DNA from: Tritonibacter horizontis
Lineage (GTDB): Bacteria; Pseudomonadota; Alphaproteobacteria; Rhodobacterales; Rhodobacteraceae
Direction of reading: 5' to 3'
DNA: 64,000 nt
Assembly: GCF_001518015.1 (NCBI RefSeq)
Contig: NZ_LPUY01000008.1
Location: 1 to 64,000 of the forward strand
The position numbers were made by a program, and so were the translations under genes. Below are positions 6,296 to 40,167 of the stretch, in pieces. The notes under the pieces are model-generated. The model ran no database searches. It saw nothing but the letters and a program-made list of their open reading frames with translations, and had not been told where the DNA came from. Every line of letters begins with the position of its first letter. Within the stretch, counting starts at the first letter, position 1.

Positions 6296-6363
6296 GATTG
6301 TCCCTGTTTTTTTCCCGCAGATCTCAGTGTCTCGGGCTTGGTCTCTCTGCCATCCGCAGGCTG

Positions 6364-6414
6364 TGGCACTGCTGTGCCAGAGAGGAGGCCGGAGAGCGCG
6401 ATACGCTCTCCGGC
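6364..6414 (-). other. Two intercistronic stem-loops after the binding-protein gene
   Basis: A perfect 11-bp stem (6388-6398 / 6404-6414, 5-base loop) lies 17 bases after the stop of the binding-protein gene. It is followed by a smaller TGGCAC/GTGCCA hairpin (6364-6379). No T-run follows on the minus strand. Such structures between binding-protein and permease genes usually act as mRNA stabilisers or partial terminators that keep the binding protein more abundant. That role is inferred. Confidence 0.6.
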
Positions 6415-6431
6415 AAAGGCATCAGGCCAGA

Positions 6432-7535
6432 TTACTTGGCCAGCCACGCCTGGAATTTCGCGTCGATGTCGTCGCGATAGTCAGCCCAGAACTCGTAGTT
6501 GTAGAGGAACGTGTTCTTGGAGTTTTCGGGATCGGTCGGCATGTGAGGCGCCATGTCGATACCCAGTTCGGCGTGCTGACCCACCAGCGGAGCGGAGGAG
6601 GCACGGGCCGGACCGTAGGAAATGTACTTTGCCTGATCCGCAAGACGCTGCGTGTCGGTGGCGAAGTAGATGTAGTCCAGGGCGCGGGCCTTGCGCTCGT
6701 CGGACAGACCGGCAGGAATGATCCAACCGTCAAGGTCGAACACCTGCGCGTCCCAGAGCATCGCAACGGGCTGGTCCTGCTCTTCGATCACGGAGAACAG
6801 ACGGCCGTTGTAGGTGGAGCCCATCACAACTTCGCCATCGGCGAGCAGCTGCGGTGTGTCGGCACCGGCGGACCACCAGATCACGCTGTCCTTGATGGTG
6901 TCGAGCTTGGCCAGCGCCTGCTCTTGACCTTCTTCGGTTTCCAGCACGTCATAGACGTCTTCCTTGGCGACACCGTCGCAAAGCAGAGCCCATTCCATGT
7001 TGTTGATCGGACGCTTTTCCAGCGCGCGCTTGCCCGGATAGGCTTCGAGATCGAACACATCGCAGATTTTGGAGGGCGGGGTATCGCCAACCAGATCGGT
7101 GCGATAGCCGAAGGTGGTGGAATAAACGATCTGCGGGATGAAGCAGTCGGAGACCAGCAGGTCGCCAAAGTCGTCTTCGGCAGAGGTGCCATCGGGCGCG
7201 GGGGCCAGATGCTCGTCCGGGTCGATTTCCATCGCCAGACCTTCGTCACACAGACGCATCGCGTCGGCAGCCACAACGTCAACCACATCCCAGGTGACAT
7301 TGCCCGCTTCGTTCATCGCGCGCAGTTTGGCGACCGCTTCGGCGGAGCTTTCATCGTTGATGATGGTGACGCCGGTCTTTTCGGCATAGGGCTCGCTATA
7401 CGCTTTGATCTGGGAGTTGGAGTAGGCTCCACCCCAGGACACGATGGTCATTTCGTCAGCCATATCTGCAGCAAAGGCCATCGGCGCGCAGAGGGCGGTC
7501 GTGGCGGCAAGTGCCGTCAGGTTACGCAGTTTCAT
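6432..7535 (-). CDS. ABC transporter periplasmic substrate-binding protein, polyamine class
   Basis: This exported protein of 367 residues captures the substrate for the PotB/PotC-like permeases encoded downstream. I place the start at ATG 7535, because GGAG lies nine bases upstream and the sequence begins MKLRNLTALAATTALC...AFA, a clean signal peptide. The ATG at 7550 overlaps that ribosome-binding site. The mature part starts with the SBP_bac segment VSWGGAYSNSQIKAY and carries SAGADTPQLLADGEV and YNGRLF, as in PotD-like proteins. The several cysteines (for example LCDEG, SDCF, ICDVF) could form disulfides. The ligand is not determined. Confidence 0.88.
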   Translation of the reverse strand: MKLRNLTALAATTALCAPMAFAADMADEMTIVSWGGAYSNSQIKAYSEPYAEKTGVTIINDESSAEAVAKLRAMNEAGNVTWDVVDVVAADAMRLCDEGLAMEIDPDEHLAPAPDGTSAEDDFGDLLVSDCFIPQIVYSTTFGYRTDLVGDTPPSKICDVFDLEAYPGKRALEKRPINNMEWALLCDGVAKEDVYDVLETEEGQEQALAKLDTIKDSVIWWSAGADTPQLLADGEVVMGSTYNGRLFSVIEEQDQPVAMLWDAQVFDLDGWIIPAGLSDERKARALDYIYFATDTQRLADQAKYISYGPARASSAPLVGQHAELGIDMAPHMPTDPENSKNTFLYNYEFWADYRDDIDAKFQAWLAK

Positions 7536-7633
7536 AAGTGTATACTCCATTGTTGAGACACTGATTGTTCAGGTGATTGGCCCCCCGGTCCATTGAACGT
7601 CGCCAGGGGTTCCTATGCGGTGCTGGGCGCGCG

Positions 7634-8734
7634 TCAGGCGTCCAGCGCGCGGCAGTCCTCGGGCAGCCAACCGATTTCGATTTGCTGTCCGGGCTGAAGC
7701 CGAACCTGGTCAGGGGCGTTCCGGGTCTTGATGATAAAGTCCTTGTTGCCCGCCACCCGCAGGCGCGTGCGGAAGATGTCACCCATATAGATGAACTCCA
7801 GCACCTCGGCCTTGAGGGTGTGTGCGCCTTCCTGCAGGCGTTCCTTGTTGTATTCGACACGCTCCGGGCGGATCGACACGCGGGTGCGCTGCCCGGCCTC
7901 GGAAACGTTGACCGGGGTGCAGGCGATCAGCTCGCCCCCATCCAGTTGCACCAGGGCGTGACCTTCGCGGATTTCCTTGATCACACCTTCGAGCGTGTTG
8001 TTCTCGCCGATGAACTGCGCCACGAAGCTGTTCGCGGGCTCTTCATACAGCTGATCCGGCGGCGCGAGCTGCTGGATGCGGCCATCATTGAACACCGCAA
8101 CACGGTCCGACATCGTCAAGGCTTCGGTCTGGTCGTGGGTTACATAGACCGTGGTGATGCCAAGCTGATGCGCAAGATGGGTGATTTCAAACTGCATCTT
8201 TTCGCGCAGCTGCTTGTCGAGCGCGCCGAGCGGTTCGTCCATCAGCACCAGCTCCGGTTCGAACACCAATGCACGGGCAAGGGCCACACGTTGCTGCTGC
8301 CCCCCCGAAAGCTGGGCCGGACGGCGGCCCCCAAATGTCCCCATCTCGACCATGTCGAGAGCGCGTTTGACCTTGGCCTCGCGATCCGATTTGCCCAAAC
8401 CGCGCACTTCCAGCGGAAAGCTGAGGTTTTCGGCAATCGTCATATGCGGGAACAGCGCGTAGTTCTGAAAGACCATCCCGATGCCGCGCTTGTGGGGCGG
8501 GATGTTGTTGATCGACGTCCCATCAAGGCGAATATCGCCGTGGGTCGCCGTTTCAAACCCCGCCAGCATCATCAGGCATGTGGTCTTGCCCGACCCTGAG
8601 GGCCCGAGCATTGTCAGGAACTCACCCTTCGGCAGGGAGAGATTCAAGTCTTTGACGACAAGAGTCTCGCCGTCATAGCTCTTTTGAACGCGTTCGAACT
8701 CTACGAACGCATCGGAATTAGACGCATCAGCCAA
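7634..8734 (-). CDS. ABC transporter ATP-binding protein, PotA-like
   Basis: The ATPase energises the polyamine-type importer encoded downstream. It has Walker [10 protein letters not shown], signature LSGGQQQR, Walker B VLMDEP and an H-loop in [10 protein letters not shown], with a C-terminal TOBE_2 domain (last about 90 residues). The frame is open upstream to 8839, but those residues do not look like family sequence. A TTG at 8734 has GGGGAG seven bases upstream and gives a normal N-terminus just before the ABC core ([14 protein letters not shown]). This makes a 366-residue protein. It is first in the operon ATPase - binding protein - permease - permease. Confidence 0.9.
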
Positions 8735-8949
8735 AAGCAGGCTCCCCGTGATTTTTTCTTCTTGCCGGATATGTTTCCGCGCTTCTTGCTGGAATTGTAA
8801 GCACACATGGGTGACCCGGCGCAACCGTCCCCTGTTCAATTCCGCTATTGCAGGCCGTTCGTCTCTAAAAAGCAGGCAATACAGTTCAGATTGCGCCTGT
8901 TTGATGCCGCATTTGCGCGTATGGCCTGAAATCTGAAATCAAAATGAAG

Positions 8950-9036
8950 GCGGGCTTGACCGGAAAATCAAAAGATTCGGCCGGATTAAGCCCGCGGATC
9001 AACCAAAAACGACATGTTTCTGGTTGATCCTGTCGT
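8950..9036. repeat. Two inverted repeats in the intergenic region
   Basis: Between the start of the PotA-like gene and the end of the aminotransferase gene lie GCGGGCTT/AAGCCCGC (8950-8957 / 8988-8995), with inner CCGG arms, and GGATCAACCA/TGGTTGATCC (8996-9005 / 9021-9030), nested within ACGACA/TGTCGT (9009-9014 / 9031-9036). The second may end the aminotransferase transcript, but neither has a clear T-run. The region (8735-9053) must also hold the promoter of the minus-strand transporter operon. Confidence 0.5.
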
Positions 9037-9053
9037 TTCGGAACGCCCGAAAA

Positions 9054-10448
9054 TCAGGCTGAAACGTTCAGACCTTCAGCCTCGATCTGGGCCAGGCATT
9101 CGTCCAGCGACGTGGTGGCGCGGGCGATCAACGTGTCGATCTCTGCTTCGGTGATGACCAGCGGCGGAGAGATGATCATCCGGTCGCCGACGTGGCGCAT
9201 GACGAGATTGTTGGCAAAGCACCGCTCGCGGCAGATGTAGCCCACCGTGCCGGCCTCGGCGGCAAATGCGGCCCGTGTGGACTTGTTCGGCGTCAGGGTG
9301 ATCGACCCCATCATGCCGATAATATTCGCTTCACCCACCAGCGGGTGCGCCACCAGTGCCTCCCATTTTTCCTTGAGGTAGGGAGCGGTTACGGTCTTCA
9401 CGCGCTCAACAATCTTTTCCTCTTCGAGGATCCGCAGGTTCTCCAGCGCCACCGCGGCGGCGACCGGGTGACCGGAATAGGTATAACCGTGGTTGAACTC
9501 GCCCTGCGCAATCACGCTCGCCACTTCGTCCGAAACGATGGAGCCGCCGATGGGCGCGTAGCCGGACGACAGACCTTTGGCGATGGTCATGATATCAGGA
9601 CGTATGCCCATGGTTTCGCTGCCGAACCAGGCCCCCGTGCGCCCAAAGCCGCAAATCACCTCGTCTGCGATCAACAGGATTTCGTACTTGTCGCAGATGC
9701 GCTGAATTTCCGGCCAATAGGTCGCGGGCGGCACGATAACACCGCCGGCCCCCTGGATCGGCTCGGCGATAAAGGCCGCCACGCGATCTTCACCCAGTTC
9801 CAGAATTGCCTGTTCCAGTTCTTGAGCGCAGGCCAGACCAAAATCCTCGGGCGTTGCATCGCCGCCTTCGGCCCACCAGTTCGGCTGGTTGATATGGTGA
9901 ATGTCCGGAATCGGCAGCCCGCCCTGCGCGTGCATGCCCGACATGCCGCCCAGCGACCCGGACCCGACAGAGGAGCCATGATAGGCGTTCTTGCGCGAGA
10001 TCAGAATGGACTTGGTCGGCTTGCCCTTCATCGCCCAGTAGTGGCGCACCATGCGGATATTCGTGTCGTTCGCCTCAGAGCCGGAACCGGCAAAGAACAC
10101 ATTGTTGAGGTCTCCCGGCGCCAGTTCGGCGATCTTGGCGGCCAGCGCGATGGCCGGCACATGGGTGGTTTGAAAGAACGTGTTGTAATAGGGCAGTTCG
10201 CGCATCTGACGGGCCGCAACATCGGCCAGTTCTTCGCGCCCATAGCCAACATTGACGCACCACAGGCCTGCCATGGCGTCCAGGATTTCGTGGCCTTCGC
10301 TATCGGTCAGGGTCACGCCTTTGGCCCGGGTGATGACGCGGACACCTTTCTGGGCCAATTCACCGTTGGCGGTGAACGGGTGCATATGGTGGGCGGCATC
10401 AAGCGCCTGCAGCTCTGCCGTGGGCAGGTGGTTGGTTAGGTCAGTCAT
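9054..10448 (-). CDS. Class III (PLP) aminotransferase, polyamine/omega-amino acid type
   Basis: This 464-residue cytosolic enzyme transfers an amino group from an omega-amine to pyruvate or a keto acid. The PLP lysine lies in TIAKGLSSGY. The preceding LIADEVICGFGRTGAWFGSE and the glycine-rich FFAGSGSEANDTNIRMVRHY are family signatures. The start ATG 10448 has GGAG eight bases upstream and begins MTDLTNHLPTAELQALD. Placement between two polyamine importers and beside a GntR regulator suggests a putrescine-pyruvate (SpuC-like) role. Beta-alanine or taurine-type transaminases share these motifs, so the substrate is inferred from context. Confidence 0.9.
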   Translation of the reverse strand: MTDLTNHLPTAELQALDAAHHMHPFTANGELAQKGVRVITRAKGVTLTDSEGHEILDAMAGLWCVNVGYGREELADVAARQMRELPYYNTFFQTTHVPAIALAAKIAELAPGDLNNVFFAGSGSEANDTNIRMVRHYWAMKGKPTKSILISRKNAYHGSSVGSGSLGGMSGMHAQGGLPIPDIHHINQPNWWAEGGDATPEDFGLACAQELEQAILELGEDRVAAFIAEPIQGAGGVIVPPATYWPEIQRICDKYEILLIADEVICGFGRTGAWFGSETMGIRPDIMTIAKGLSSGYAPIGGSIVSDEVASVIAQGEFNHGYTYSGHPVAAAVALENLRILEEEKIVERVKTVTAPYLKEKWEALVAHPLVGEANIIGMMGSITLTPNKSTRAAFAAEAGTVGYICRERCFANNLVMRHVGDRMIISPPLVITEAEIDTLIARATTSLDECLAQIEAEGLNVSA

Positions 10449-10472
10449 TCGAGTCACTCCAGAGCGGGCCAG

Positions 10473-10495
10473 TTTTGACCAGAATATGATCAAAA
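10473..10495. promoter_or_regulatory. 23-bp near-palindrome, candidate operator of the adjacent GntR regulator
   Basis: The arms TTTTGACCA (10473-10481) and TGATCAAAA (10487-10495) form an almost perfect inverted repeat 25 bases upstream of the aminotransferase start. The half-site RTCAAAA recurs twice in the regulator/binding-protein divergent region (11291-11297, 11311-11317). The recurrence in both promoters flanking the regulator supports a common operator. Confidence 0.5.
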
Positions 10496-10513
10496 ACGAA
10501 GCTGTCAATCGAA

Positions 10514-11200
10514 TCAGATGACCGGCGTCAGACCGGCCCGAACCTGCTCCATGCCCTGCAACACGTCTCTTTCCATCGCCAGAACAACCAGATCCGCATC
10601 CTTTTTACGCAGCCCTTCCAGAATGTCCTTATGCCGGTCCGGAAAGCTCTGGGTGCCAAAGCGACCGCAGACCACCCGCAGCGATGGTCCGAACCGCAGC
10701 CACAGCCGGTCCGCAAGATCCGCGAGAATGGGCGCGTCGGCATATTGGTTCAGGGCAGTGTGAAATTGGTAATTCAACGCCAGGTAGCCTGCCACGTCGC
10801 CGGTTGCGATGGCTTTGTCCAGGGTCAGATCCAACTGCTCCAGCGCATCAATCTCGGCCCTTGGGATCCGCGTCGCGGCCCGGCGGGCAAGCTCGCACTC
10901 AATTGTTTTTCTTGCAAAAACAAGCTCATCTATATCTTCGGCGCGCAATTCGGGAACCGAAACACGGCGGTTGCCCTGAAACACCAGCGCACCATCCGAG
11001 ATCAGCCGTCGGATGGCCTCGCGCACCGGGGTCATGCCGCTGTCCAGCGCGTCAACCAGCCCTTGTATCGTCACCGCCTGCCCCGGTGCCAGTTCCCCGA
11101 ACAGGATCTGGGCGCGCAGACGCTGATAGACCTGTTCGTGCGCGGGCTGTTTTGCGGCCCCATCAGCGGCCTGAACGGAGGGTGGATTTGACACAGTCAC
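10514..11200 (-). CDS. GntR-family transcriptional regulator, FadR/FCD subfamily
   Basis: This DNA-binding regulator has an N-terminal winged helix (EQVYQRLRAQILFGELAPGQ...GMTPVREAIRRLISDGAL) and a C-terminal helical FCD ligand domain with metal-binding-type histidines (YQFHTALNQ). The frame is open to an ATG at 11305, but no ribosome-binding site is seen there. A GTG at 11200 has GGAAGG 11 bases upstream and is my preferred, uncertain start. The gene lies between the aminotransferase and the divergent PotF-like operon, so it probably represses polyamine uptake and catabolism. The ligand could be a polyamine or a catabolite; this is inference. Confidence 0.88.
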   Translation of the reverse strand: MTVSNPPSVQAADGAAKQPAHEQVYQRLRAQILFGELAPGQAVTIQGLVDALDSGMTPVREAIRRLISDGALVFQGNRRVSVPELRAEDIDELVFARKTIECELARRAATRIPRAEIDALEQLDLTLDKAIATGDVAGYLALNYQFHTALNQYADAPILADLADRLWLRFGPSLRVVCGRFGTQSFPDRHKDILEGLRKKDADLVVLAMERDVLQGMEQVRAGLTPVI

Positions 11201-11288
11201 CGGGCTTGGGTCCTTCCATTTTTTGGGCAGCTTGCACGAAGGAATTACAGATGAAAACATAAAGTGTCTTGCCGGATGAGGCAAAACT

Positions 11289-11317
11289 TGATCAAAATAG
11301 CCCATAGCCGGTCAAAA
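11289..11317. promoter_or_regulatory. Two direct RTCAAAA half-sites in the divergent region
   Basis: The segments GATCAAAA (11290-11297) and GGTCAAAA (11310-11317) are spaced 20 bases apart, about two helical turns. They lie between the GntR gene and the second binding-protein gene. They match the arms of the near-palindrome at 10473-10495. They are candidate binding sites for the GntR regulator on the PotFGHI-like operon promoter. Confidence 0.4.
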
Positions 11318-11346
11318 AGACACTGGCACTCACAGGGGAGTTTCTC

Positions 11347-21044: not shown

Positions 21045-21893
21045 ATGTCCAGCATTCTGACGAACAATGGCGCAATGGTTGCACTGCAGACACTGAAGTC
21101 TGTCAATGATGACCTGAACACCACCCAGTCCAATATCTCCACCGGTAAAGAAATTGGTTCCGCAAAAGACAACTCCGCTGTATGGGCGATCTCCAAAACC
21201 ATGGAATCCGACATCGCCGGTTTTGAAGCGATCGAGGAAGGCCTTGCGATCGGCGAAGCCACTGTTGCGGTTGCCTCCGCCGGTGCCGAGCAGATCGTTG
21301 AAAAGCTGACAGAAATCAAGGAACTGATCGTTTCTGCACAGTCCGAGAACGTCGATCACGAGAAGATTCAGACAGATATCACATCGAAAGTCGAGCAGGT
21401 CGAGGCCATCATTTCCGCAGCGCAATTCAACGGTGCAAACCTGCTGGCAAGTGACATCGACGGCAACACCACTACTCAAATGGGTGTTCTTGCGTCTCTC
21501 GACCGTGAAGGTGCCGGCGGTACCGTGACAGCTGTGGAAATCACCATCGCAACTGTCGACTTCGAATCCAGTCTGGATCTGACCGCCGATCTGACGTCGA
21601 TCTCTGACACGGACACTGCCGCGTCCGCGCTCGAAGACATCGAAACCTTCCTGCAGACCGCCATCACCGGCGCTGCTGCTCTCGGTGCGTCCGCCGCCCG
21701 TCTGGAAGATCAGTCCATGTTCGTGGCAAATCTCGTCGACTCCATGACCTTGGGTGTTTCGACAATGACCGACACCAACATGGAAGAAGCATCCGCACGA
21801 CTGAGCGCGCTGCAAACCCAACAAGAACTTGCAGTTCAATCGCTAACGATTGCGAACGAAGCGCCGGGCTCGCTGTTGCAGCTCTTCCGATAA
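21045..21893 (+). CDS. fliC: Flagellin
   Basis: This structural subunit of the filament has 282 residues. The N-terminal D0/D1 helices (MSSILTNNGAMVALQTL to about residue 130) and the C-terminal D1/D0 helices (from about 215, ending SLTIANEAPGSLLQLFR) are canonical. The centre is very short, so D2/D3 surface domains are largely missing. The ATG at 21045 has AAGGAA upstream and fits homologues better than an in-frame start nine codons earlier. A strong terminator follows. flaF and flbT, which control flagellin translation, lie just downstream. Confidence 0.95.
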   Translation: MSSILTNNGAMVALQTLKSVNDDLNTTQSNISTGKEIGSAKDNSAVWAISKTMESDIAGFEAIEEGLAIGEATVAVASAGAEQIVEKLTEIKELIVSAQSENVDHEKIQTDITSKVEQVEAIISAAQFNGANLLASDIDGNTTTQMGVLASLDREGAGGTVTAVEITIATVDFESSLDLTADLTSISDTDTAASALEDIETFLQTAITGAAALGASAARLEDQSMFVANLVDSMTLGVSTMTDTNMEEASARLSALQTQQELAVQSLTIANEAPGSLLQLFR

Positions 21894-21975: not shown

Positions 21976-22347
21976 GTGAATGCCCTTCTAAAGGCGAAGA
22001 GCGCCTATGCGGCGGCAAAAGCCCCGACCCGTACAGCACGAAACACAGAGTACGAAATCCTTGCACGCCTCACTCATCGTATGATTGTGGCCAACAGCAA
22101 AGGTTCGGACGGTTTCAAGGAGCTTGTCGCAGCGGTTTCCGATAACCGAAAACTCTGGACACTCTTCACTTCGGATCTGGCCAAGGAAGGCAACAAGCTG
22201 CCGCCCGAGCTGAAACAACGCTTGTTTCATCTGGCCCGCTTCACGCGTGAGCACAGCAGCAAGGTCTTGGCTCGAAAGGCCACAGTCCAGCCGCTTGTAG
22301 AGATCAACACGGCCATTATGCGTGGCCTCAGAAGCGGAGCGTCCTGA
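21976..22347 (+). CDS. flaF: Flagellin biosynthesis regulator FlaF
   Basis: FlaF is needed for flagellin secretion and synthesis in alphaproteobacteria and acts opposite to FlbT. This 123-residue cytosolic protein shows family features ARNTEYEILARLTHRM and LWTLFTSDLAKEGNKLP. The start is GTG 21976 with TAGGAT five bases upstream; the overlapping ATG is out of frame. The stop is followed two bases later by flbT. Confidence 0.92.
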   Translation: MNALLKAKSAYAAAKAPTRTARNTEYEILARLTHRMIVANSKGSDGFKELVAAVSDNRKLWTLFTSDLAKEGNKLPPELKQRLFHLARFTREHSSKVLARKATVQPLVEINTAIMRGLRSGAS

Positions 22348-22349
22348 AA

Positions 22350-22754
22350 ATGAGTGGATTGGTCCTTAAACTCGCGCCAAAAGAGCGCGTCTTGGTCAAT
22401 GGTGCCGTGATCGAGAACGGAGATCGCCGCAGTCGCTTGTCGATCGTAACCCCTGATGCGCATATTCTGCGTCTGCGGGACGCGATCCATCCAGAACAAG
22501 CGAATACGCCGGTGCGCCGTGTCTGTTATGCGGCCCAATTGGTTCTCTCCGGGGACGTCGACCCTGAGGAAGACCGTTTGCCGATGCTGCGTCGCATCGA
22601 AGAGCTGAGCCAGGTGTTTACAGACTCAGACAGCCGGGCCGCGCTTGCGGAAGCAACTGAATCGGTGATTGGCAACAACCACTATCGCTGCCTCAAAGCC
22701 TTGCGCGCGCTGTTGCCGCGGGAGGAACGGCTTATGGCCGTCAGATCGCAATGA
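22350..22754 (+). CDS. flbT: Flagellin translation repressor FlbT
   Basis: In Caulobacter, FlbT binds the 5' untranslated region of flagellin mRNA and destabilises it until the hook is finished. This 134-residue protein starts MSGLVLKLAPKERVLVNGAVIENGDRRSRL, the typical FlbT N-terminus, and contains RRVCYAAQLVLSGD. The long untranslated region upstream of fliC (about 20830-21044) would be its target; that is inferred. The end overlaps the next gene by four bases. Confidence 0.93.
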   Translation: MSGLVLKLAPKERVLVNGAVIENGDRRSRLSIVTPDAHILRLRDAIHPEQANTPVRRVCYAAQLVLSGDVDPEEDRLPMLRRIEELSQVFTDSDSRAALAEATESVIGNNHYRCLKALRALLPREERLMAVRSQ

Positions 22755-24727
22755 GTTACACACCGCTTATTCCGTCATCGGGGGTCGCGGGCTGGAATTT
22801 TTTGCAATCGACCTATGACCGGCAGTACGAGGCTTTTGTCCAGGCCGGTCAGTTAAAAAACGATACAGAGTACTTTGCCGAGAATATCGGCAAAGTCACC
22901 TCATCCGATGATCTTCTAAACGACCGCCGCCTGCTTCAGGTGGCGGTCAAGGCGTTCGGATTGGAGGAAGAAATCAACTATCGCGCGTTGCTGCAGCGCA
23001 CCTTGAACGAGGGCACAACAGCCGACGACGCGCTTGCAAACAAAATGAACGACGAACGCTATGTGAAATTTTCCGAAGCGTTTGGTTTTGGACCCGGACA
23101 GTCTGCAAAGACGGCGGACTCCAAAGCTATGCAAGAAGTCATCGACAGTTTTCAATCAGCCTCCTTTGAGGAAGCGGTCGGCAATGTAGACGAGACCATG
23201 CGCACCGCGCTTTTTGCAAAGCGCGCAATGCTCGAAGTGTTTGGCGAGCCGGACGAAGACGATGTTTCTCAGCTCAGCGTCAAGGAACGTGCGCTTCGGG
23301 AATTCGATCTGACATTGCAGGAAATCAACGGCGATGAAGACGAAGAACTGGGCGTAAAATCTGTTGAGGATCAATGGAAAGAGATTGTCCAGCGGGATGT
23401 ACTGACCGATTTCCTCAACACGACGCTGCGGATGCCAGTCGCGACGGCGGGTCTCGACGATGATGAAAAGGTTCAGGCCTATCGCGACCGCGCAACGATC
23501 GTTTTTGGTAGCGACGACCCAACGGTTTTCTTCTCGCCAGACAATAAGGAGGCCGTCCTGTCGGCCTATCGTTCACGGGCAACTGTCGCGGGCGAAACGA
23601 GTGCAGATATTGCCAAGACGTCTGATCTGTCAGAGCGCATTCTCGATCAGCTGGTCGCACGCGGATCTGCCTTGAATGAGGAATGGGATTTCATTTCCCG
23701 ACAGGAACCGCTGGCGGATTTCATGAAGATCGCATTGGATCTGCCTGACGACATCGCCAACCGAGACACGAGCGAAGCCATGCGGATCTATCGCGAAAAG
23801 GCGATCGAGATTTTCGGCACAGACGATCCGAACGTTTTCGCCAATGATGCCAATGTGGACGAAGTTCTGTCGATCTACCGCGAAAAGGCCTCCGAGTCGG
23901 GCATGCGCAACAGTGAAATTTCTTCCAATGTGCGGACAGTGGAAACGATCCTCAAATTCACCTATGGGGATGAAGACGCAATCACGAATGACAGCCCTGA
24001 ACAAATAACAGCTGAAATCGATGCTGGCTGGTTCAGTGTCATGGGCCAAACCGGCGTGCCGCGTTTTCTGAACACCGCGCTTGACGTGAATGGCGCCGTA
24101 GACGACCTGATTGCCGCAGGTGATCTGGAGGCGGGCTCTACCTTTGATGGGCTTAGCATCGATGAAAAACTGAGCATTTACAAAGATAAAGCCACAGAGC
24201 TCTTTGGCACAGACGACCTGAAGGAGCTGACCGGCCCCTATCAGATCGGTATCGTAAGCGATACCTATCGCACCAATGCGGCCGCCAACGGTGAAAGCTC
24301 ATTCTTCATCAACTACTACGCGCAAATTGCAGAGCGCGAGCTGGATGTGTTGTTCCAATCCGACGATACGGATGCCGAGCAGGCCTTTGAGGAGGCGTTG
24401 GAGCGCCTTCGCACCATGAATGACGAAGACGACGGCCCGAGTGCGAATTCTCAGTGGTTCACCATCATGGGACAGCAGGCCATGACCGATTTCATGCAGG
24501 TCGCTCTTGGGTTGCCAAAGGAAGTTGGGCAGATGGATATCGACCAGGCGGTTGAGGTCTATAAACGTAAGGCAGAGCAAGTCCTTGGGACTGACAAGCC
24601 ATCAGAGTTCATTTCCGGCGACAAGATGGATGACCTGGTCAACCTCTACCTGACACGTTCCCAGATGCGTTCTATTGGCAGCGGCTACAGTTCTGGCAGC
24701 GCCGCGCTGATGATGCTGCGCCGGTAA
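22751..24727 (+). CDS. DUF1217-type flagellar-cluster protein with four tandem C-terminal modules
   Basis: This 658-residue acidic protein has no signal peptide. Residues about 1-150 match the N-terminal DUF1217 layout (EYFAENIGKVTSSDDLL, QVAVKAFGLEEE, YVKFSEAFGFGPG). Then a module normally present once occurs four times, at about 206-285, 309-385, 423-515 and 566-640. Its pattern is W..I..Q..L.DF...AL.LP...YR.KA...FGTDDP...F. Usual family members are about 200-270 residues. The gene is translationally coupled to flbT and ends at a strong terminator. The role is unknown; a structural or secreted flagellar function is only suggested by context. Confidence 0.75.
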   Translation: MSYTPLIPSSGVAGWNFLQSTYDRQYEAFVQAGQLKNDTEYFAENIGKVTSSDDLLNDRRLLQVAVKAFGLEEEINYRALLQRTLNEGTTADDALANKMNDERYVKFSEAFGFGPGQSAKTADSKAMQEVIDSFQSASFEEAVGNVDETMRTALFAKRAMLEVFGEPDEDDVSQLSVKERALREFDLTLQEINGDEDEELGVKSVEDQWKEIVQRDVLTDFLNTTLRMPVATAGLDDDEKVQAYRDRATIVFGSDDPTVFFSPDNKEAVLSAYRSRATVAGETSADIAKTSDLSERILDQLVARGSALNEEWDFISRQEPLADFMKIALDLPDDIANRDTSEAMRIYREKAIEIFGTDDPNVFANDANVDEVLSIYREKASESGMRNSEISSNVRTVETILKFTYGDEDAITNDSPEQITAEIDAGWFSVMGQTGVPRFLNTALDVNGAVDDLIAAGDLEAGSTFDGLSIDEKLSIYKDKATELFGTDDLKELTGPYQIGIVSDTYRTNAAANGESSFFINYYAQIAERELDVLFQSDDTDAEQAFEEALERLRTMNDEDDGPSANSQWFTIMGQQAMTDFMQVALGLPKEVGQMDIDQAVEVYKRKAEQVLGTDKPSEFISGDKMDDLVNLYLTRSQMRSIGSGYSSGSAALMMLRR

Positions 24728-24749
24728 CACCCTTTGCCAGATTGGAAAA

Positions 24750-24772
24750 TGCCCCCGGACAAACCGGGGGCA
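24750..24772. terminator. Bidirectional terminator
   Basis: A 9-bp perfect stem TGCCCCCGG / CCGGGGGCA (24750-24758 / 24764-24772) with loop ACAAA is flanked by A- and T-rich sequence. It lies between the convergent DUF1217 and fliI genes. Confidence 0.8.
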
Positions 24773-24840
24773 TTAAATCTGCAGGAGCGCTACCGAAGCG
24801 CAGGCTCGTTGGCATCCCCGCCTTTGGGCAAACTGCGCCT

Positions 24841-30330: not shown

Positions 30331-30849
30331 ATGTCAAAACTGCTCCCGATACTCATGCTGATCATTGGCCTTGGTGGCGGTATCGGAGCGGGCATCATGC
30401 TCGCCCCACCGCCCGAGGAGATGGAGCATGCAATGGCAGGCGACGCCGAGGGTCATGACAAAACCTCAGGCGAAATGGACGAGGATCATGCCGACGACAC
30501 CGGCGATTCGGGTGAAGAGACGACTCCAAACGAGTTTATCAAGATCAACAGCCAGTTCGTGATTCCGGTGGTCGAACGTGATCAACTCGCGTCGCTTGTT
30601 GTTGTCTCTCTCAGCCTGGAAACCAAACCCGGCATGGCGTCCAAGGTTCATTCCTTTGAACCGAAGCTGCGGGATGTATTCCTGAGAGTTTTGTTCGACC
30701 ACGCAAACATGGGAGGCTTTCGCGGCGCGTTTACCCGGTCTGAAGTGCTCGACCCGCTCCGCACCTCTTTGCGTGAAGAAGGTCGCCGCTATCTCGGCAA
30801 GGATCTGATTGACGTTCTTATTCTGGAAATTACCCGTCAGGACGTTTGA
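30331..30849 (+). CDS. FliL-like basal-body protein (first of two)
   Basis: This 172-residue single-pass membrane protein has a transmembrane segment at about 4-26 (LLPILMLIIGLGGGIGAGIML), an acidic linker with Asp/Glu/His-rich composition (about 30-65) and a periplasmic domain. The domain contains KINSQFVIPVVERDQLASLVVVSLSLE and the C-terminal RRYLGKDLIDVLILEITRQ, which follow the FliL pattern weakly. A clearer fliL lies at 40177-40701. This one ends the rod-gene operon. It may be a divergent paralogue with a distinct stator or basal-body role. Confidence 0.7.
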   Translation: MSKLLPILMLIIGLGGGIGAGIMLAPPPEEMEHAMAGDAEGHDKTSGEMDEDHADDTGDSGEETTPNEFIKINSQFVIPVVERDQLASLVVVSLSLETKPGMASKVHSFEPKLRDVFLRVLFDHANMGGFRGAFTRSEVLDPLRTSLREEGRRYLGKDLIDVLILEITRQDV

Positions 30850-30937: not shown

Positions 30938-30972
30938 GCGGTCGGGACTTTGAATTTCAATAGATGTCGATA

Positions 30973-31377
30973 TCAGTCCAGGTTCATCAACCGATCAAAC
31001 AGCATCTTGTTGCGCCGTTCTTTCGCGTTGCTCTTATGCTGATTTTCCATCGTCTCGACAGCGTGTTTTCGGCCAAAAGCCTGGCGCAATTTGTCCATAG
31101 CGCGCAGTTTTTTCGCCGTTACCTGCGCCAGTTCCGAGTTGATATCGCGGCGGGCGTTCGTATGCCATTTCTGCCACTGCAAATCGACGCCCAGCGCTTT
31201 CATTTCATGGCTCTTGTCGATCAGCTCCCGGGATTGCTCAACCTGTTGCTTCAGCATCGTCAGCTGGCCCCGCAACTTTGCCTCGTGGTCCAGGATTGGT
31301 TTCACCTTGGCATGCTCACGCAGGTAGACCGCATTGGTCACCGATCTCATCTGAGCAAGCATCTTGTCCTGTTTCAT
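30973..31377 (-). CDS. Small coiled-coil protein, FliJ candidate
   Basis: This 134-residue, very basic, wholly helical protein is rich in Lys, Glu, Gln and Met (LREHAKVKPILDHEAKLRGQL and KLRAMDKLRQAFGRKHAVE). It is the last gene of the flhA-fliR-flhB operon and overlaps flhB by four bases. FliJ, the antiparallel coiled-coil stalk of the FliI ATPase, has this size and composition and is otherwise missing from the cluster. No sequence motif proves the identity, so the call is positional. Confidence 0.55.
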   Translation of the reverse strand: MKQDKMLAQMRSVTNAVYLREHAKVKPILDHEAKLRGQLTMLKQQVEQSRELIDKSHEMKALGVDLQWQKWHTNARRDINSELAQVTAKKLRAMDKLRQAFGRKHAVETMENQHKSNAKERRNKMLFDRLMNLD

Positions 31378-32465
31378 AGCGCGCTATCCTTTGCACGTTT
31401 TCGCATCTCTTCCGCAAACCGGACCGCTGCCGCAACTGGCGCATAATGTTCTTCCGCAATCTCTTCCCCAACCTCGACCGTCGCATAGAGGGCCCGTGCG
31501 GTTGGAGGATCGCTGTGCAGCGGCACCCCGTGTTCCTGGGCGATCTCCCGGATGATTGCAGCAACGTCATCGACGCCTTTTGCAACACATTCGGGCGCGC
31601 TGCCGGAAATGCGGCTCCATTTCAAAGCAACCGCATAATGGGTCGGGTTCACGATCACGACGTCAGCAGTCGTCACCGCTGCCTTGATCTGTTTTGCCAC
31701 GATCTGACGACCCTTTTGTTTGCGCTGCCCCTTGGTATGCGGATCACCTTCAGAGTTCTTCATTTCATCCGTGACGTCTTTGCGTGACATCATGTTTTTG
31801 CGGATGAACTCGGCCTGCTGGAACGGTGCGTCGATCAGTCCGATCCCAAGCGAAATGATCAACGTCAGAAGAAGAAATTCCATACCAAGCTGAACAAGAA
31901 ACGGCACCACCGTATAGGGGCTGGTCCCAACCGATGCGATCATTTCCGGCACGCGCCAGCTCAGATACACCCCAAGCGCGACAGAATAAAGCAGCAGCTT
32001 GGCAAAGCTTTTTGCGAATTCGAACAAACCACCACGTCCGAATTTGTTTTTGGCGTTTTTGATTATGGACAATCGAGACAGTTTTGGTTCGATCCGCTTT
32101 GGTGCAAAGACCATTGCGCGTTGCGCAAAGACAGCCAACAACACAAGAGCCGCGGGCATGACGAACCACGGCAAGACGGATTTGAACGCGGTGGTGATGA
32201 ACTGACCCGAGATCGGCGCCGCCATACCCTCGCCAAAAAAGACGGGCGCCAAACGGTCTGGCTGGTCGATCATCGACATCAAGACCGTACCAAGTTGCTC
32301 GATACTGGATCTTCCAGCAGTATAGAACGCAATCAGCGTCCCCATATAGCCTGCAGCCTGAAGAAGATCGTTCGACTTTGGAACGTCCCCTTCAAGTCGC
32401 GCTTTTCGCAATTTCTCCGGTGTTGGCTCAAATGACTTGTCTGAGTCGTCTGAATCGTCGCTCAT
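31374..32465 (-). CDS. flhB: Flagellar export switch protein FlhB
   Basis: This 363-residue export-gate protein has four transmembrane helices in the first about 210 residues and a cytoplasmic autocleaving domain with VIVNPTHYAVALKW (Asn-Pro-Thr-His near residue 273). Cleavage between Asn and Pro switches export from hook to filament substrates, acting with FliK. The N-terminus MSDDSDDSDKSFEPTPEKLRKARLEG is typical. It overlaps fliR by four bases and the FliJ-like gene by four. Confidence 0.96.
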   Translation of the reverse strand: MSDDSDDSDKSFEPTPEKLRKARLEGDVPKSNDLLQAAGYMGTLIAFYTAGRSSIEQLGTVLMSMIDQPDRLAPVFFGEGMAAPISGQFITTAFKSVLPWFVMPAALVLLAVFAQRAMVFAPKRIEPKLSRLSIIKNAKNKFGRGGLFEFAKSFAKLLLYSVALGVYLSWRVPEMIASVGTSPYTVVPFLVQLGMEFLLLTLIISLGIGLIDAPFQQAEFIRKNMMSRKDVTDEMKNSEGDPHTKGQRKQKGRQIVAKQIKAAVTTADVVIVNPTHYAVALKWSRISGSAPECVAKGVDDVAAIIREIAQEHGVPLHSDPPTARALYATVEVGEEIAEEHYAPVAAAVRFAEEMRKRAKDSAL

Positions 32466-35703: not shown

Positions 35704-38145
35704 TTACTCTTCTGGTGGTGTTCTTTCGACGCGACGCAGCAATTCCTCGATGGAACTTCTGGCCCCGGCACTGCTTTCGAGTAATGCACGTGCTTCGGCA
35801 AGAGGAGGCAAACCTTCAGGCTCACGCACCGCAGTATCGATCTGGTTTGTCAAATCCGCCACCGCCCGAAAGGGGGCCACTTCCGTGTCCAGACTTTCCG
35901 CCGATTCCAAATTCTCCGAATGCCAGAAACCCCGCGCTGCTGCGTTCAAATCCTGGGCAGACATCATGTATTCGCTCGCGCGCTCATATTCCTTGTTCCG
36001 CCACAAAGCACGGGCGCGCATGCGGTCTGCCTGCTCCCCCTCCAGCCCCATCAGTTCGACCAGGGCCCGCTGTGGCTGATCCATCGCAAGCAGCGCTTCG
36101 GCACTCATCATGCGGCGGTTTTCATTGTCAGGTTCCAAGCTCATTTTCCGCAACAGCGTCTCGGCTTGCTGCGGGAACCCCAAATCCAGCAGACGCTCCG
36201 CCACCAAATCTCCGACTTGGCCAGCGCGTGTCGCACCCGCTTCTTCGGCGAAAATCAGGGCATACTTCAGAAATGTCACATCGTTGGCATTCTCGGTCAG
36301 CAGGATCATGAGTGGCGCGTTAACGCTGTTGCGTGCCCCGATTCCATCTCGGCGTTCCAGTTTATCAAATCTGGAGAACGCCTCGTCAAAACGGCCGGCC
36401 AGGGCGAGTGCCGTCACTTCGGCCAAACGCAGCTCTGCCCCCAGTGCAGTATCTCTGCTTTCCAGTTCGTAGGACGCCGTCAGATCCGGGACATCTGGCG
36501 ACAGGGCCCGGCGCTCCCGAAAGCTAAGATTGATCAGTTCGATCAAAGCCATCGGAGTATTTTCGCTTTGCTCCGCCACTTCTTCTGTCAGGTTTCGCGC
36601 CACGGCTTCTGTGTTGCCTTCAAGTTCAGCAATCGCTGCTTCTGCCAGATTGCGGTCCGGGACCGTTTCAATGCCGGTCCGGTCAACCGCGCGCAAGGCT
36701 GCTTTTGCCACATGAGGGTCGCCCGCCGTCGCAAAAAGCGTGCTCATGCGGGGGCCAAGCTGAACCCGCAGATGAGGCGGCAACTTCGCAAATGCCTGCT
36801 GAATGGCATCCGTATTTGCACTCTTCTTTACAACACCATCGGCCATTGCCGCCCAGAAAGCAGAGTCTCCGCCGCAGGTCTGTTGGCCGGTAAAGATCGT
36901 ATTCACCGGCAGGTCTGCGGCATCAACAATGCTTCCCATTGTCATCATGATTTCGCGAGACGTCTCATCGAAACGATCTTCGGGGATCATCCGCATCGTG
37001 GCGCGGGCTTCGGCCCCGAATCCAAAGTATAGATAGGTCCGAGCCAATTTCAGCACGACATTGCGGTCAACCTGGTCGAACTCACCGAGCATCTTGCTTC
37101 GGAGCGCGCCAATCTGCTCTGCAAACGCAGCCTCACCGCCCCATTTGTGGATTGCAACCTCACGGTCCTGAATGCAGTGCGTGTCTTCAGAATCCCCGTC
37201 CCCACCAATGGCAAGCAATCCGGTCTCGCGGTCGATGGCAGACGTTACAGAGATGTTGTCCAAGGGGTTAAGCGGTCGGTTTTGATTGCCGCGTGGATTG
37301 AGCTGACTGTTTTCGCCGCTCTCTTCGGTCGTTTTGAGCAGCCCCTGTTCGCTGGCCCGGCCGATTTGCTGTAGCAAGCGAGACTCTGAATCATTCACCA
37401 TCGCTGCGCGCCGATTCTCGTCGAAATCCATGAGAAGGCTTGCATCTGCGCCAATGGCTTCAGGCTCGGATTTACCATCTTCGGACTTTGTCGGTTTTGG
37501 CTCTTTGGGCTGCGCCTCTGCGACTTGTTTTGTGTCACCTTCGGCGGAGACGTCACCGAGGGTTCGCGCCTCTGACTGCATCAGAAGTGGCAGTTCGATT
37601 GGCCCCGTTTGCGAGGGTCGCTGCTGAGATGACCCAAAGGTAGCCTCCACAGCATCTTCGAGGTCCATTGCGACGCGGGCACTGGCCAGATCCTGCCGCC
37701 CCAGGTTGAAGCTGAAGCTATTGTTTCGAACCGGAAAGGTCAGTGGCAAGCTGGCCGGGTCGCTCGGTTCCGCCAGCGCCAAAGGACGCCCTTCCCTGAC
37801 ATCGAGCACCAGGTAGCCATCCGCCTGCTGGTAATAATCGACCACACATTCACAGCCCAATTCGATCCGGAGCGGCTGCCCCGGACCGTTTTGAGAGACC
37901 GTTTGAATGCGCGTGCGCGGGATGAGGTCAAAGATGCCCCGGGTATTGAAGACTGCAGTCGGCGAACCGAGATTGACGGTGGCGATTCGGTCGCTTTGCG
38001 TCAGCGACCATTCCACCCCGTCTGGAATTCGCATAACCAGTCGTGTGAAGTCATCATGCTCTCCCGAGCGCGTGACGATCGTTTGTGCTTCTGCATATCC
38101 GGCCACCACTACTGCGGCGGCAAATGCGATTGCTCGCGGTATCAT
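35704..38145 (-). CDS. Large periplasmic TPR protein of the stator operon
   Basis: This 813-residue secreted protein has a signal peptide (about 1-20, ending GYAEAQ). The N-terminal domain of about 120 residues has alternating beta strands (FTRLVMRIPDGVEWSL, PLRIELGCECVVDYY, GYLVLDVREG), reminiscent of AMIN domains. A long acidic linker follows, then helical repeats of TPR type to the end (for example LLRKMSLEPDNENRRMMSAEALLAM). It overlaps the motA stop by four bases, so it is made together with MotA and MotE. Rhizobial MotC is a periplasmic partner of the motor in a similar operon, but I see no sequence kinship. The function is unknown. Confidence 0.75.
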   Translation of the reverse strand: MIPRAIAFAAAVVVAGYAEAQTIVTRSGEHDDFTRLVMRIPDGVEWSLTQSDRIATVNLGSPTAVFNTRGIFDLIPRTRIQTVSQNGPGQPLRIELGCECVVDYYQQADGYLVLDVREGRPLALAEPSDPASLPLTFPVRNNSFSFNLGRQDLASARVAMDLEDAVEATFGSSQQRPSQTGPIELPLLMQSEARTLGDVSAEGDTKQVAEAQPKEPKPTKSEDGKSEPEAIGADASLLMDFDENRRAAMVNDSESRLLQQIGRASEQGLLKTTEESGENSQLNPRGNQNRPLNPLDNISVTSAIDRETGLLAIGGDGDSEDTHCIQDREVAIHKWGGEAAFAEQIGALRSKMLGEFDQVDRNVVLKLARTYLYFGFGAEARATMRMIPEDRFDETSREIMMTMGSIVDAADLPVNTIFTGQQTCGGDSAFWAAMADGVVKKSANTDAIQQAFAKLPPHLRVQLGPRMSTLFATAGDPHVAKAALRAVDRTGIETVPDRNLAEAAIAELEGNTEAVARNLTEEVAEQSENTPMALIELINLSFRERRALSPDVPDLTASYELESRDTALGAELRLAEVTALALAGRFDEAFSRFDKLERRDGIGARNSVNAPLMILLTENANDVTFLKYALIFAEEAGATRAGQVGDLVAERLLDLGFPQQAETLLRKMSLEPDNENRRMMSAEALLAMDQPQRALVELMGLEGEQADRMRARALWRNKEYERASEYMMSAQDLNAAARGFWHSENLESAESLDTEVAPFRAVADLTNQIDTAVREPEGLPPLAEARALLESSAGARSSIEELLRRVERTPPEE

Positions 38146-39011
38146 GCTGCGTCCTGTTTCACCGAATTCAAGGCTTCCTCCAGCTCGGAGAACCCGGGCC
38201 GGATGTGGGATGGCGTATTCTGACGCCCCACTTCGATACAGATGGCTGCGGCGTGGTTATGAAGGTTCGCCACAAGAACCTCGCGGATCAGCTGGTAGAA
38301 ATGCGCGTCTTCTTCAACGACGGCTTTTACCTTGCCCGCAAAAGGTGCAACCAGACCGTAAGACAGGAACACCCCGAGGAAGGTCCCGACCAAGGCACCA
38401 CCAATCATCTTGCCAAGAACTTCAGGGGGCTGGTCGATCGAGGCCATAGTCTTGATCACACCAAGAACAGCCGCAACAATCCCGAGGGCGGGCAAGCCGT
38501 CCGCCATGGTCTGCAAGGCATGACTGGAATGCAGCGCATGATGCAGGTTTGCTTCGATCCGTTTTTCCAGCACCTCTTCAACCTGGTGCGGGTCGTCGTA
38601 GTTCATCGACGCAGACCGCATGGTATCGCTGATCAGGTTGATCGCTTCTTTATCAGCGAGAATTTTGGGGTACTTTCCAAAAACCGGGGAGTTTTCAGGG
38701 TCTTCAATGTGTTGCTCAACCTCAACCGGGTTGGCTCGGGCAATTCGGATCAAAGCAAACAGCAGGCAGAGCAGATCTTTGTAATCTTCGGGCAGCCATT
38801 TCGGCCCTTTGAAGACCTTGCCCATATCCTTGATCGTATGCTTCACCCCGCCCATGTCGTTGCTGATAAGAAAAGCCCCGACCGCAGCGCCACCAATCAT
38901 CATCATCTCGAAAGGCAATGATTTGACGATGATGCCCAGCTTGCCACCTGCGAGCAGGTAGCCACCAAACACCATGGCAAAGATCACAATGATCCCTACA
39001 ATCCCTATCAT
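38142..39011 (-). CDS. motA: Flagellar motor stator protein MotA
   Basis: This 289-residue proton-channel subunit has four transmembrane helices: two near the N-terminus (IVGIIVIFAMVFGGYLLAG, MMMIGGAAVGAFLIS) and two around residues 170-225 (LPALGIVAAVLGVIKTM, IGGALVGTFLGVFLSYGL). The cytoplasmic loop with the charged residues that contact FliG lies at about 80-165. motB is not adjacent; it lies 11 kb away at 49608. The order is motE, motA, TPR protein. Confidence 0.95.
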   Translation of the reverse strand: MIGIVGIIVIFAMVFGGYLLAGGKLGIIVKSLPFEMMMIGGAAVGAFLISNDMGGVKHTIKDMGKVFKGPKWLPEDYKDLLCLLFALIRIARANPVEVEQHIEDPENSPVFGKYPKILADKEAINLISDTMRSASMNYDDPHQVEEVLEKRIEANLHHALHSSHALQTMADGLPALGIVAAVLGVIKTMASIDQPPEVLGKMIGGALVGTFLGVFLSYGLVAPFAGKVKAVVEEDAHFYQLIREVLVANLHNHAAAICIEVGRQNTPSHIRPGFSELEEALNSVKQDAA

Positions 39012-39085
39012 GGGTAAGCTCCAAATATTGTCACTGGTTTGAAGGTAGGCCAGTCATGTTAAAAAAGGCTGAGTGAGAAGCCGAG

Positions 39086-39697
39086 TTACTCCTTCGGCAC
39101 TTCACCATTTCGTCCAGCCAGGACCACGCTGATGGTATATGCGGCTTCAGGACTAAGTCCTGCCATCACGCCAGCGGCGGCCTCCGGGCGCATCCGGGCC
39201 AGAAAACCGGCGGCAAAGCTTGGGTCCATCTCTTCAAACAGCGCGGCGGCATCCTTGGGCTTCATCTGTTCGTAAACAGTTGTCAGCTTCGACACGTCCT
39301 GCTCTGCGGCGCCATCAGCCAACGAGAGGGTTGCAAGCAATTTGGCTTCGGCATCCTGCAAATCCTGGAGCTTTTTTTCAATCGCCTGATCCGCGATCTC
39401 GAGCGCCTTCATGCGATCTTCGATCTCGGCCTCGCGATCCGCCAGCATCATTTCACGTTTCTTGAACGCAGCGATCATCGCCTGCATCTCGGCAGAGTTG
39501 GGCACGTCGGAATTGCCCGCCTGGCGCGCAAGGGTAGGATCGGTTTCGGATTTCATACCTGCGACCTCCCGTGCGATCGCAGGCGCCGCTTCGAGCGCGA
39601 TCCGGACAACCGCAGACGCCATGAGGAAGACAGCGAGCAACATCAAAGTGCCGCGCTTGGCCTTGTGCATCTTCTTGGATTTGTCTGCCTTGGCCAT
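39086..39697 (-). CDS. MotE-like motility chaperone
   Basis: This 203-residue protein has one N-terminal transmembrane helix (about 14-33), a coiled coil (about 75-125, ADREAEIEDRMKALEIADQAIEKKL) and a C-terminal MgtE-N-like/MotE domain (YEQMKPKDAAALFEEMDPSFAAGFLARMRPEAAAGVMAGL). In rhizobia MotE is a periplasmic chaperone of MotC. ATG 39697 shares one base with the upstream stop. GTG 39700 is an alternative. Confidence 0.82.
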   Translation of the reverse strand: MAKADKSKKMHKAKRGTLMLLAVFLMASAVVRIALEAAPAIAREVAGMKSETDPTLARQAGNSDVPNSAEMQAMIAAFKKREMMLADREAEIEDRMKALEIADQAIEKKLQDLQDAEAKLLATLSLADGAAEQDVSKLTTVYEQMKPKDAAALFEEMDPSFAAGFLARMRPEAAAGVMAGLSPEAAYTISVVLAGRNGEVPKE

Positions 39698-40167
39698 CAC
39701 GCTACCCGATTCTGATTTCGGTTGTGACGCACAAACATCAGTCCGGACGGCTTGGCTTCTTCCTGCGTTTCGGCCGCCTGAGGTACAGTTTCTGGCACAT
39801 CTTCGTCATAAGCGACTGCAAGCGCATCGTTCTCCTCGGTACGCGGCGATTCGGCCTGAGACCGTGTCGAAGCCTGTGACTGCGGCGCGATATCATGCAT
39901 CGAAGCCATCATCAGTTCGAGCTTCTGCGACACCGATTCGGCGCGCCCGGTCAACTGTTCCAGCGCCTTACTGGATCCGTCGGACATCTGCCGCGCGGCG
40001 ACCAGCGATTTATTCAAGTCATCTACTTGCGAAGAAAGCACCGCGACAGCCCCACCGACCCCTTTTTCAAGGTCGTTGAACCGCTTCAATCGGCGCGACA
40101 GCACCAGGCAATAAAACCCGGCACCAAGTGCTCCAGCTGCAAGCAGGATATCAGCTATAAGTTCCAT
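39697..40167 (-). CDS. Membrane-anchored coiled-coil protein, DUF6468-like
   Basis: This 156-residue protein has an N-terminal transmembrane helix (MELIADILLAAGALGAGFYCLVL) and a basic stop-transfer RRLKRF. A heptad-rich region follows (about 32-95, VAVLSSQVDDLNKSLVAARQM), then a variable tail. It resembles the DUF6468 proteins that accompany fliL in alphaproteobacterial flagellar clusters. It lies between fliL and motE and probably acts at the basal body or stator. The function is not known. Confidence 0.65.
   Translation of the reverse strand: MELIADILLAAGALGAGFYCLVLSRRLKRFNDLEKGVGGAVAVLSSQVDDLNKSLVAARQMSDGSSKALEQLTGRAESVSQKLELMMASMHDIAPQSQASTRSQAESPRTEENDALAVAYDEDVPETVPQAAETQEEAKPSGLMFVRHNRNQNRVA

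Follow-up and report, generated by a model that had tools for sequence, protein, structure and literature searches.

A DUF1217 protein enlarged by repeated C-terminal modules beside flbT is, by synteny, CP1 of the Rhodobacterales flagellum

The window, a 64,000-nucleotide stretch of Tritonibacter horizontis DNA (contig NZ_LPUY01000008.1, positions 1 to 64,000), carries a DUF1217 gene of unusual length directly after flbT, which raises the questions of what this protein is, how it became so large, and what it contributes to the flagellum. Ordinary DUF1217 proteins have about 260-290 aa and one C module; WP_011836204.1 of Cereibacter sphaeroides 2.4.1, for example, is of the same family and also follows flbT directly, yet its gene has 789 bp compared with 1,977 bp here. 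The gene order in the window is fliC, flaF, flbT, DUF1217 gene, hairpin, and convergent fliI:

21045..21893, + strand: flagellin fliC (PF00669, PF00700)
21976..22347, + strand: flaF (PF07309, 122.9 bits)
22350..22754, + strand: flbT (PF07378, 139.3 bits), with an ATGA overlap with the start of the DUF1217 gene
22751..24727, + strand: DUF1217 protein gene, CP1 by synteny (658 aa, N-C-C-C-C, 0 cysteine)
24748..24774, + strand: GC-rich inverted repeat (hairpin) without a T tract, between the DUF1217 gene and convergent fliI

The flbT stop codon overlaps the start codon of the DUF1217 gene (ATGA, 22751-22754), in agreement with the coupling to flbT proposed in an earlier sequence-only reading. That reading also set the gene between the flagellin regulators and a terminator; the regulators are where it placed them, and the terminator label is partly supported, since the hairpin is strong (stretch z -4.9) but lacks a T tract and a terminator scan downstream of the gene found none. 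The 658-aa protein matches DUF1217 (PF06748) in three stretches with 163.7 bits (curated cut-off 22.9). No other Pfam family matched it at E≤1, among them TPR and other helical repeat families, the FliD sequence family, and the N- and C-terminal helical regions of flagellin and FlgL, and NCBIfam returned 0 matches.

Tomasch et al. (PMC11974857, preprint; PMC12363192, mSystems) describe a gene order fliC-flaF-flbT-CP1 and, in the accessible text, place the C. sphaeroides set on a 124-kb plasmid. In Cereibacter sphaeroides 2.4.1, the 124,316-bp plasmid is annotated with the order flagellin, flaF, flbT, DUF1217, and because this matches the published order, CP1 is a DUF1217 protein. The same order, fliC-flaF-flbT-CP1, is present in the window, so that, judged by synteny, the window's protein is CP1 of the Rhodobacterales flagellum. 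According to the accessible text of the paper, CP1 of Phaeobacter inhibens DSM 17395 (PGA1_c23640) is essential for motility (PMC11974857, PMC12363192). Most flagellar proteins of the CP1 mutant, including FliC, are still found outside the cells, whereas microscopy showed no flagella and, in some cells, an undefined polar structure; none of CP1-4 was detected in the P. inhibens exoproteome, the authors proposed a chaperone or FlhE-like role for CP1, and they held CP1-4 to be exclusive to fla1 of Rhodobacterales (PMC11974857). The family's function, unknown to the earlier reading, is thus not a complete blank, as CP1 was already published as essential for motility, even if neither version of the paper uses the word DUF1217. 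Searches for DUF1217, PF06748, IPR010626, 2O8S, AGR_C_984p, and PGA1_c23640, whose reach ended short of supplements and most subscription journals, found no published link between CP1 and DUF1217.

The P. inhibens CP1 resembles the window's gene in family, by way of the fliC-flaF-flbT-CP1 place, and is an essential late flagellar factor. In the accessible account it lies away from the flagellar cluster, whereas the window's gene adjoins flbT, and the CP1 that was tested may differ in module number. The family itself extends beyond Rhodobacterales: DUF1217 occurs in 31 of 289 genomes of a class sample, 28 of them outside Rhodobacteraceae, it is annotated beside flgF in Phyllobacterium, and a Brucella flagellar locus lists it (PMC7410920, in its accessible part). 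The identification also places an uncharacterised essential component, CP1, in a Pfam family that has a relative of solved structure. The profile of ordinary DUF1217 members finds PDB 2o8s (AGR_C_984p, 323 residues) over positions 9-253 of 271 (E 7e-61), and 2o8s matches the N-terminal part of the window's protein (E 1.8e-17), whereas a profile of the window's C modules alone misses it.

We built N and C module profiles from 105 ordinary DUF1217 members. Where an N module and a single C module would be usual, the 658-aa protein has one N module followed by four C modules:

22859..23098, + strand: N module (residues 37-116; profile of 105 ordinary members)
23375..23599, + strand: C module copy 1 (residues 209-283)
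23702..23878, + strand: C module copy 2 (profile match at residues 318-376, envelope 312-388)
24029..24295, + strand: C module copy 3 (residues 427-515; split profile match joined across an insertion)
24452..24691, + strand: C module copy 4 (residues 568-647; matches the profile best among the four copies)

Four diverged copies had been proposed from the letters alone, with bounds (206-285, 309-385, 423-515, 566-640) that are right within about 10 residues. Pairwise scores among the four C modules are 81-159 (six pairs), and 0 of 300 shuffles reached the real score for any pair (best shuffle per pair 48-58). The N-terminal segment does not resemble the C modules: between 32 and 259 of 300 shuffles reach its scores. 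In plain self-BLASTP (word size 2) the copies are too diverged to show, and the only result was the trivial full-length match; the internal repeats, significant module by module, needed module-wise alignment to be seen. Before split matches were merged, copy 3 was broken into a pair of pieces, of which one is weak (E 0.19). The N and C halves of DUF1217 also look related: their profiles score 27.0, over 25 columns only, compared with at most 18.5 in 100 column shuffles and at most 15.5 in reversed and rotated controls. This short likeness is a lead, and it looks as if the family arose by duplication, with both halves descending from one unit.

Layouts were counted in 162 DUF1217 proteins from the genus, the family, and part of the class samples, which together are not a random sample. 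They remain from 200 ORF matches after identical or contained copies were dropped, already contain the seven named loci, and include 29 class-sample loci (L072-L100), with second places and G375 left out. The N-C layout is the commonest (128 of 162), followed by N-C4 (11), N4-C (9), N2-C (7), N5-C (4), C-only (2, both partial), and N-C2 (1); the N2-C count is that after merging of split matches and removal of overlaps, and a looser count had 19 N2-C1. The two C-only proteins, L096 and L100, were kept out of the tree and out of the 160-protein cysteine count given below. The N-C4 architecture is therefore far from usual in the family, and all 11 examples come from the window's genus. In this genus, 17 of 18 genomes have DUF1217, 11 as N-C-C-C-C (window included) and six as N-N-N-N-C. 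Across the family, 115 of 149 genomes have DUF1217, and 14 of those encode a multi-module protein (G000, G019, G025, G034, G084, G092, G102, G103, G105, G109, G142, G144, G145, and G151); G105 and G109 have an ordinary copy as well (L130 and L124, respectively).

The N-C4 proteins form one clade (SH-aLRT 100), and in a module tree of the 11 species the copies cluster mostly by position, with copy 4 falling among ordinary C modules; the expansion is thus old in the window's genus and, as the earlier reading held, not recent. The module tree has few columns and some long branches, and in the two most divergent species (L014 and L020) copies 2 and 3 sit on long branches, with copy 2 apart from the other copies 2. 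On the DUF1217 tree, a quick one made from two short joined pieces in which 76 of 157 inner branches have support below 80, at least eight changes between single and multiple modules are needed, and starred branches force six for the N-C label. Module growth so appears to have occurred several times in the family, with other lineages multiplying the N module. Module duplication has changed protein length again and again in this known but sparsely studied family, and the enlargement is a real and old one of a kind that evolved repeatedly. The idea that the window's extra C copies are the same repeats as the N copies of N4-C proteins of the same genus found no support, as the two sets match different profiles, lie in different places, and belong to separate clades (support 100).

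The place beside flbT is widely kept. Among the 86 family loci with flanks (L105-L190, of 117 places), DUF1217 adjoins flbT in 78. Two of the eight exceptions lie at contig ends (L167 and L172), one adjoins flaF in a genome without an FlbT match (L183), and five are N4-C or N5-C genes (L176, L180, L184, L186, and L188) whose genomes encode FlbT on a different contig or, in the case of G092, at a distance of about 1.2 Mb; L182 (N4-C) and L189 (N5-C) still adjoin flbT. DUF1217 directly follows flbT at seven N-C4 loci of the window's genus and at the seven named loci, which encode proteins from the same set of 11. For the six N4-C genes of this genus, seven queries matched no flagellar neighbour within about 10 kb, a situation that recalls the "distinct localization" of P. 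inhibens CP1 in the accessible text of PMC11974857. Four of these six (L191, L192, L194, and L197) have neighbours in common that, read without family searches, look like a glucokinase gene on one flank and replication and partition genes of plasmid type on the opposite flank; L193 and L196 are without these neighbours. Such neighbours may tell how the N4-C gene moved.

AlphaFold2 models of low to middling confidence predict an all-helical chain of similar units. For the whole protein, with eight close rows, the mean pLDDT is 58.9, with the first 200 residues below 50 and most blocks of the repeat region at 52-84; the last C module, with 32 module rows, reaches 72.6. A Foldseek search of both models against the PDB gave no match at E≤0.001; that 2o8s was unlisted too is uninformative on the fold. 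VIA-align with the whole model gave no convincing match (best Z 3.9). The window C-module profile returned six PDB rows that we take as chance (E 0.78-4.5), and two methyltransferase/aminopropyltransferase rows of the ordinary profile (E 0.0018 and 0.0029) were dismissed as chance as well.

From the N module onward, DUF1217 proteins are nearly devoid of cysteine, with one Cys in 51,296 residues and 159 of 160 proteins cysteine-free. As a control, we counted cysteines in flagellar genes of the window and, near DUF1217, of ten other genomes, with 2 to 11 sequences for each family, a stricter set than a wider, looser one whose ORFs included wrong starts. Flagellar families were grouped into those whose proteins are exported and those whose proteins are not. 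The exported axial families have two Cys in 19,173 aa (73 of 75 proteins free) and DUF1217 in the same set has 0 in 3,284 aa, compared with 104 in 25,582 aa for cytosolic and membrane families (44 of 101 free) and 37 in 7,356 aa for FlgH, FlgI, and the TPR protein (3 of 18 free). FlaF, FliF, and FliQ, which are not exported, are also cysteine-free in this control, a point against reading export from cysteine content (FlaF has 1.3 per 1000 in the looser set). The near-absence of cysteine, like that of exported axial proteins, nevertheless supports a probable extracellular role.

Long DUF1217 members from other families of the class offer a second, independent sequence argument for a putative extracellular role. 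Their open frames have about 785-981 aa, in which the N module and the opening portion of the C module come early, followed by roughly 500 residues or more before an end match. Close to the C-terminus, L227 shows the final part of the C module (E 0.003), L226, L228, and L229 show it weakly (E 0.75-1.9), and L230 does not, so that the insert apparently sits inside the C module. Five long proteins were read, two of them (L227 and L230) from the first ATG, with part of the N module missing. The five inserts are cysteine-free and related to each other, and their profile aligned with a profile of 86 flagellins at 95.5% (score 71.7 over 106 columns; reversed controls 24.7). Two more insert stretches, both with NLL at their end, gave weak alignments (27.9% and 17.5%) to that flagellin region. 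Against 11 FliC sequences the insert profile scores 55.1 (89%), and FlgK, at 22.6, is the highest-scoring of 28 other flagellar families; FlgL, a relative of flagellin, is not matched (19.3), which counts against the likeness. A search of 8,338 ORFs (with repeats) by the insert profile found nine long DUF1217 proteins and then two flagellins only (E 8e-4 and 2e-3). In the opposite direction, the flagellin profile matches two of the five inserts clearly (E 5e-8 and 5e-6) and leaves two unmatched, and the remaining one (E 0.25) only just beats the top-scoring copy among 105 shuffled or reversed ones (E 0.42). Flagellin_N matches two of the five at E≤1 (best 1.6e-5). The ordinary DUF1217 module profiles gave no match to flagellin, BLAST of two of the five inserts against plasmids found nothing at E≤1e-5, and the insert profile returned one PDB row only, an oxoacyl reductase (E 3e-4), which we regard as spurious. 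No flagellar neighbours of the long genes were recognised in six loci that span up to 20 kb, save MotA in one, and the long DUF1217 genes may therefore do something else. The near-total absence of cysteine in DUF1217 and the flagellin-like insert in long members of other families are the new observations here. One locus (L236, in G179) has two long DUF1217 proteins in tandem (5386-8328 and 8408-11326, both - strand), each of which matches the insert profile or gave an insert.

The lack of fliD in the window, pointed out in the earlier reading, extends to the whole genome, in which FliD_N has no match. FliD is likewise absent from P. inhibens (PMC11974857) and Rhizobiaceae (PMC6913195), and its loss in other bacteria leaves no flagella (PMC5072837), as far as the accessible parts of these sources go. 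In the family sample of 149 genomes, 113 have DUF1217 and FlbT, two DUF1217 alone (G075 and G100), one FlbT alone (G071), and 33 neither; FliD_N is found in eight, three of which also have DUF1217 (G056, G068, and G114). In the class sample, cross-counted by hand from lists, DUF1217 is in 31, FlbT in 99, and FliD_N in 57 of 289 genomes; DUF1217 occurs with FlbT in 28 and with FliD_N in two (G287 and G375). The 71 genomes with FlbT and without DUF1217 comprise three with FliD_N (G202, G216, and G427) and 68 without it. Whether or not DUF1217 is present, genomes with FlbT thus seldom have FliD, a pattern that fits a FliD-free flagellum and not a one-for-one replacement of FliD by DUF1217, an idea that the 68 class genomes with FlbT and with neither DUF1217 nor FliD_N weaken.

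What, then, does the protein do? The reading we favour, in which we place about as much trust as doubt, is that CP1/DUF1217 is an exported, late filament-assembly component outside the cell whose middle grows. It would leave the cell probably via the flagellar type III apparatus and act late, at the hook-filament junction or the filament tip, where secreted flagellin would need it to become a filament. A late structural factor at such a site is suggested by three things taken together, namely that flagellin exits the CP1 mutant and no flagellum forms, that the family looks extracellular, and that the ends are kept and the middle grows. The ancestral body would comprise the start and the last C module, leaving the middle free to gain three extra C modules here, extra N modules elsewhere, and a flagellin-like insert in the long relatives; extra helical modules would lengthen the body of the factor. 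We infer export, location, and the effect of the extra modules from these patterns. The earlier suggestion of a filament, hook, or cap accessory agrees in part with this reading: CP1 synteny, the mutant phenotype, cysteine depletion, the inserts, and the absence of FliD speak for it, whereas the missing CP1 in the P. inhibens exoproteome (PMC11974857, accessible text), which also counts against export, the lack of a fold match, and the lack of a one-for-one replacement of FliD do not.

Alternatively, the protein could stay in the cytosol as a chaperone or checkpoint for the export of flagellin or a hook-associated protein, working with FlaF and FlbT and holding its clients with helical modules, which we think somewhat unlikely. 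The operon with flaF and flbT, the modules predicted to be all-helical, and a FlaF that is cysteine-poor too are consistent with this role, as are the exoproteome result and the authors' own suggestion of a chaperone or FlhE-like function (PMC11974857, accessible text). The same source reports, however, that loss of CP1 still lets FliC and the majority of flagellar proteins into the medium, and the near-absence of cysteine in DUF1217 proteins as long as about 900 aa and the flagellin-like insert of relatives also count against a chaperone. A regulator of flagellin synthesis in the FlaF/FlbT circuit, without a structural role, would explain why the gene follows and overlaps flbT, but we regard it as very improbable: the CP1 mutant makes and releases flagellin (PMC11974857, accessible text), 11 of 13 N4-C and N5-C genes lie away from flbT, and Pfam finds no DNA- or RNA-binding family in the protein.

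A true filament cap that replaces FliD, with a ring of subunits at the tip folding flagellin into the filament, would account for the likeness between the CP1 mutant and FliD loss, either of which leaves no flagella (PMC11974857, PMC5072837, in their accessible parts). It would also suit the absence of FliD from P. inhibens, Rhizobiaceae, and the window's genome, the rarity of FliD_N in the family sample, and a window that encodes FlgK, FlgL, FlgE, FlgD, and a rod-binding FlgJ-like protein. We nevertheless judge a cap rather improbable, given the class genomes with FlbT and without DUF1217, most of them also without FliD_N, and the two that carry DUF1217 together with FliD_N. The accessible parts of the literature point the same way, since Azospirillum has both FliD and DUF1217, in different species (PMC12826043), and a review lists a FliD gene for Brucella, which also has DUF1217 (PMC8781033). 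Nor did Pfam or the fold searches with the predicted models find any likeness of the window's protein to FliD.

Returning to the late extracellular component, a bolder version of it, which we hold to be doubtful, is that DUF1217 proteins would form a separate class of extracellular tip or junction proteins in mostly FliD-less flagella. Their cysteine-free helical body, made of two halves from one unit, would grow by repeating either half or by gaining flagellin-like units, and secreted flagellin would be folded or anchored there. Either version would bear on how filaments are built in FliD-less flagella such as those of P. inhibens (PMC11974857) and Rhizobiaceae (PMC6913195), going by the accessible text of both sources.

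Two further observations concern the rest of the window. Two ORFs after flgH (30331-30846 and 30964-31443, both + strand) are without a Pfam match at E≤0.01. The genes at 35707-40167 (- strand) resemble, by their order beside motA, CP4, CP3, and CP2 of P. inhibens:

35707-38145, - strand: TPR-like protein, CP4-like by order beside motA
39089-39700, - strand: weak MgtE_N/FliG_M match, CP3-like by order beside motA
39700-40167, - strand: weak DUF6468 match, CP2-like by order beside motA
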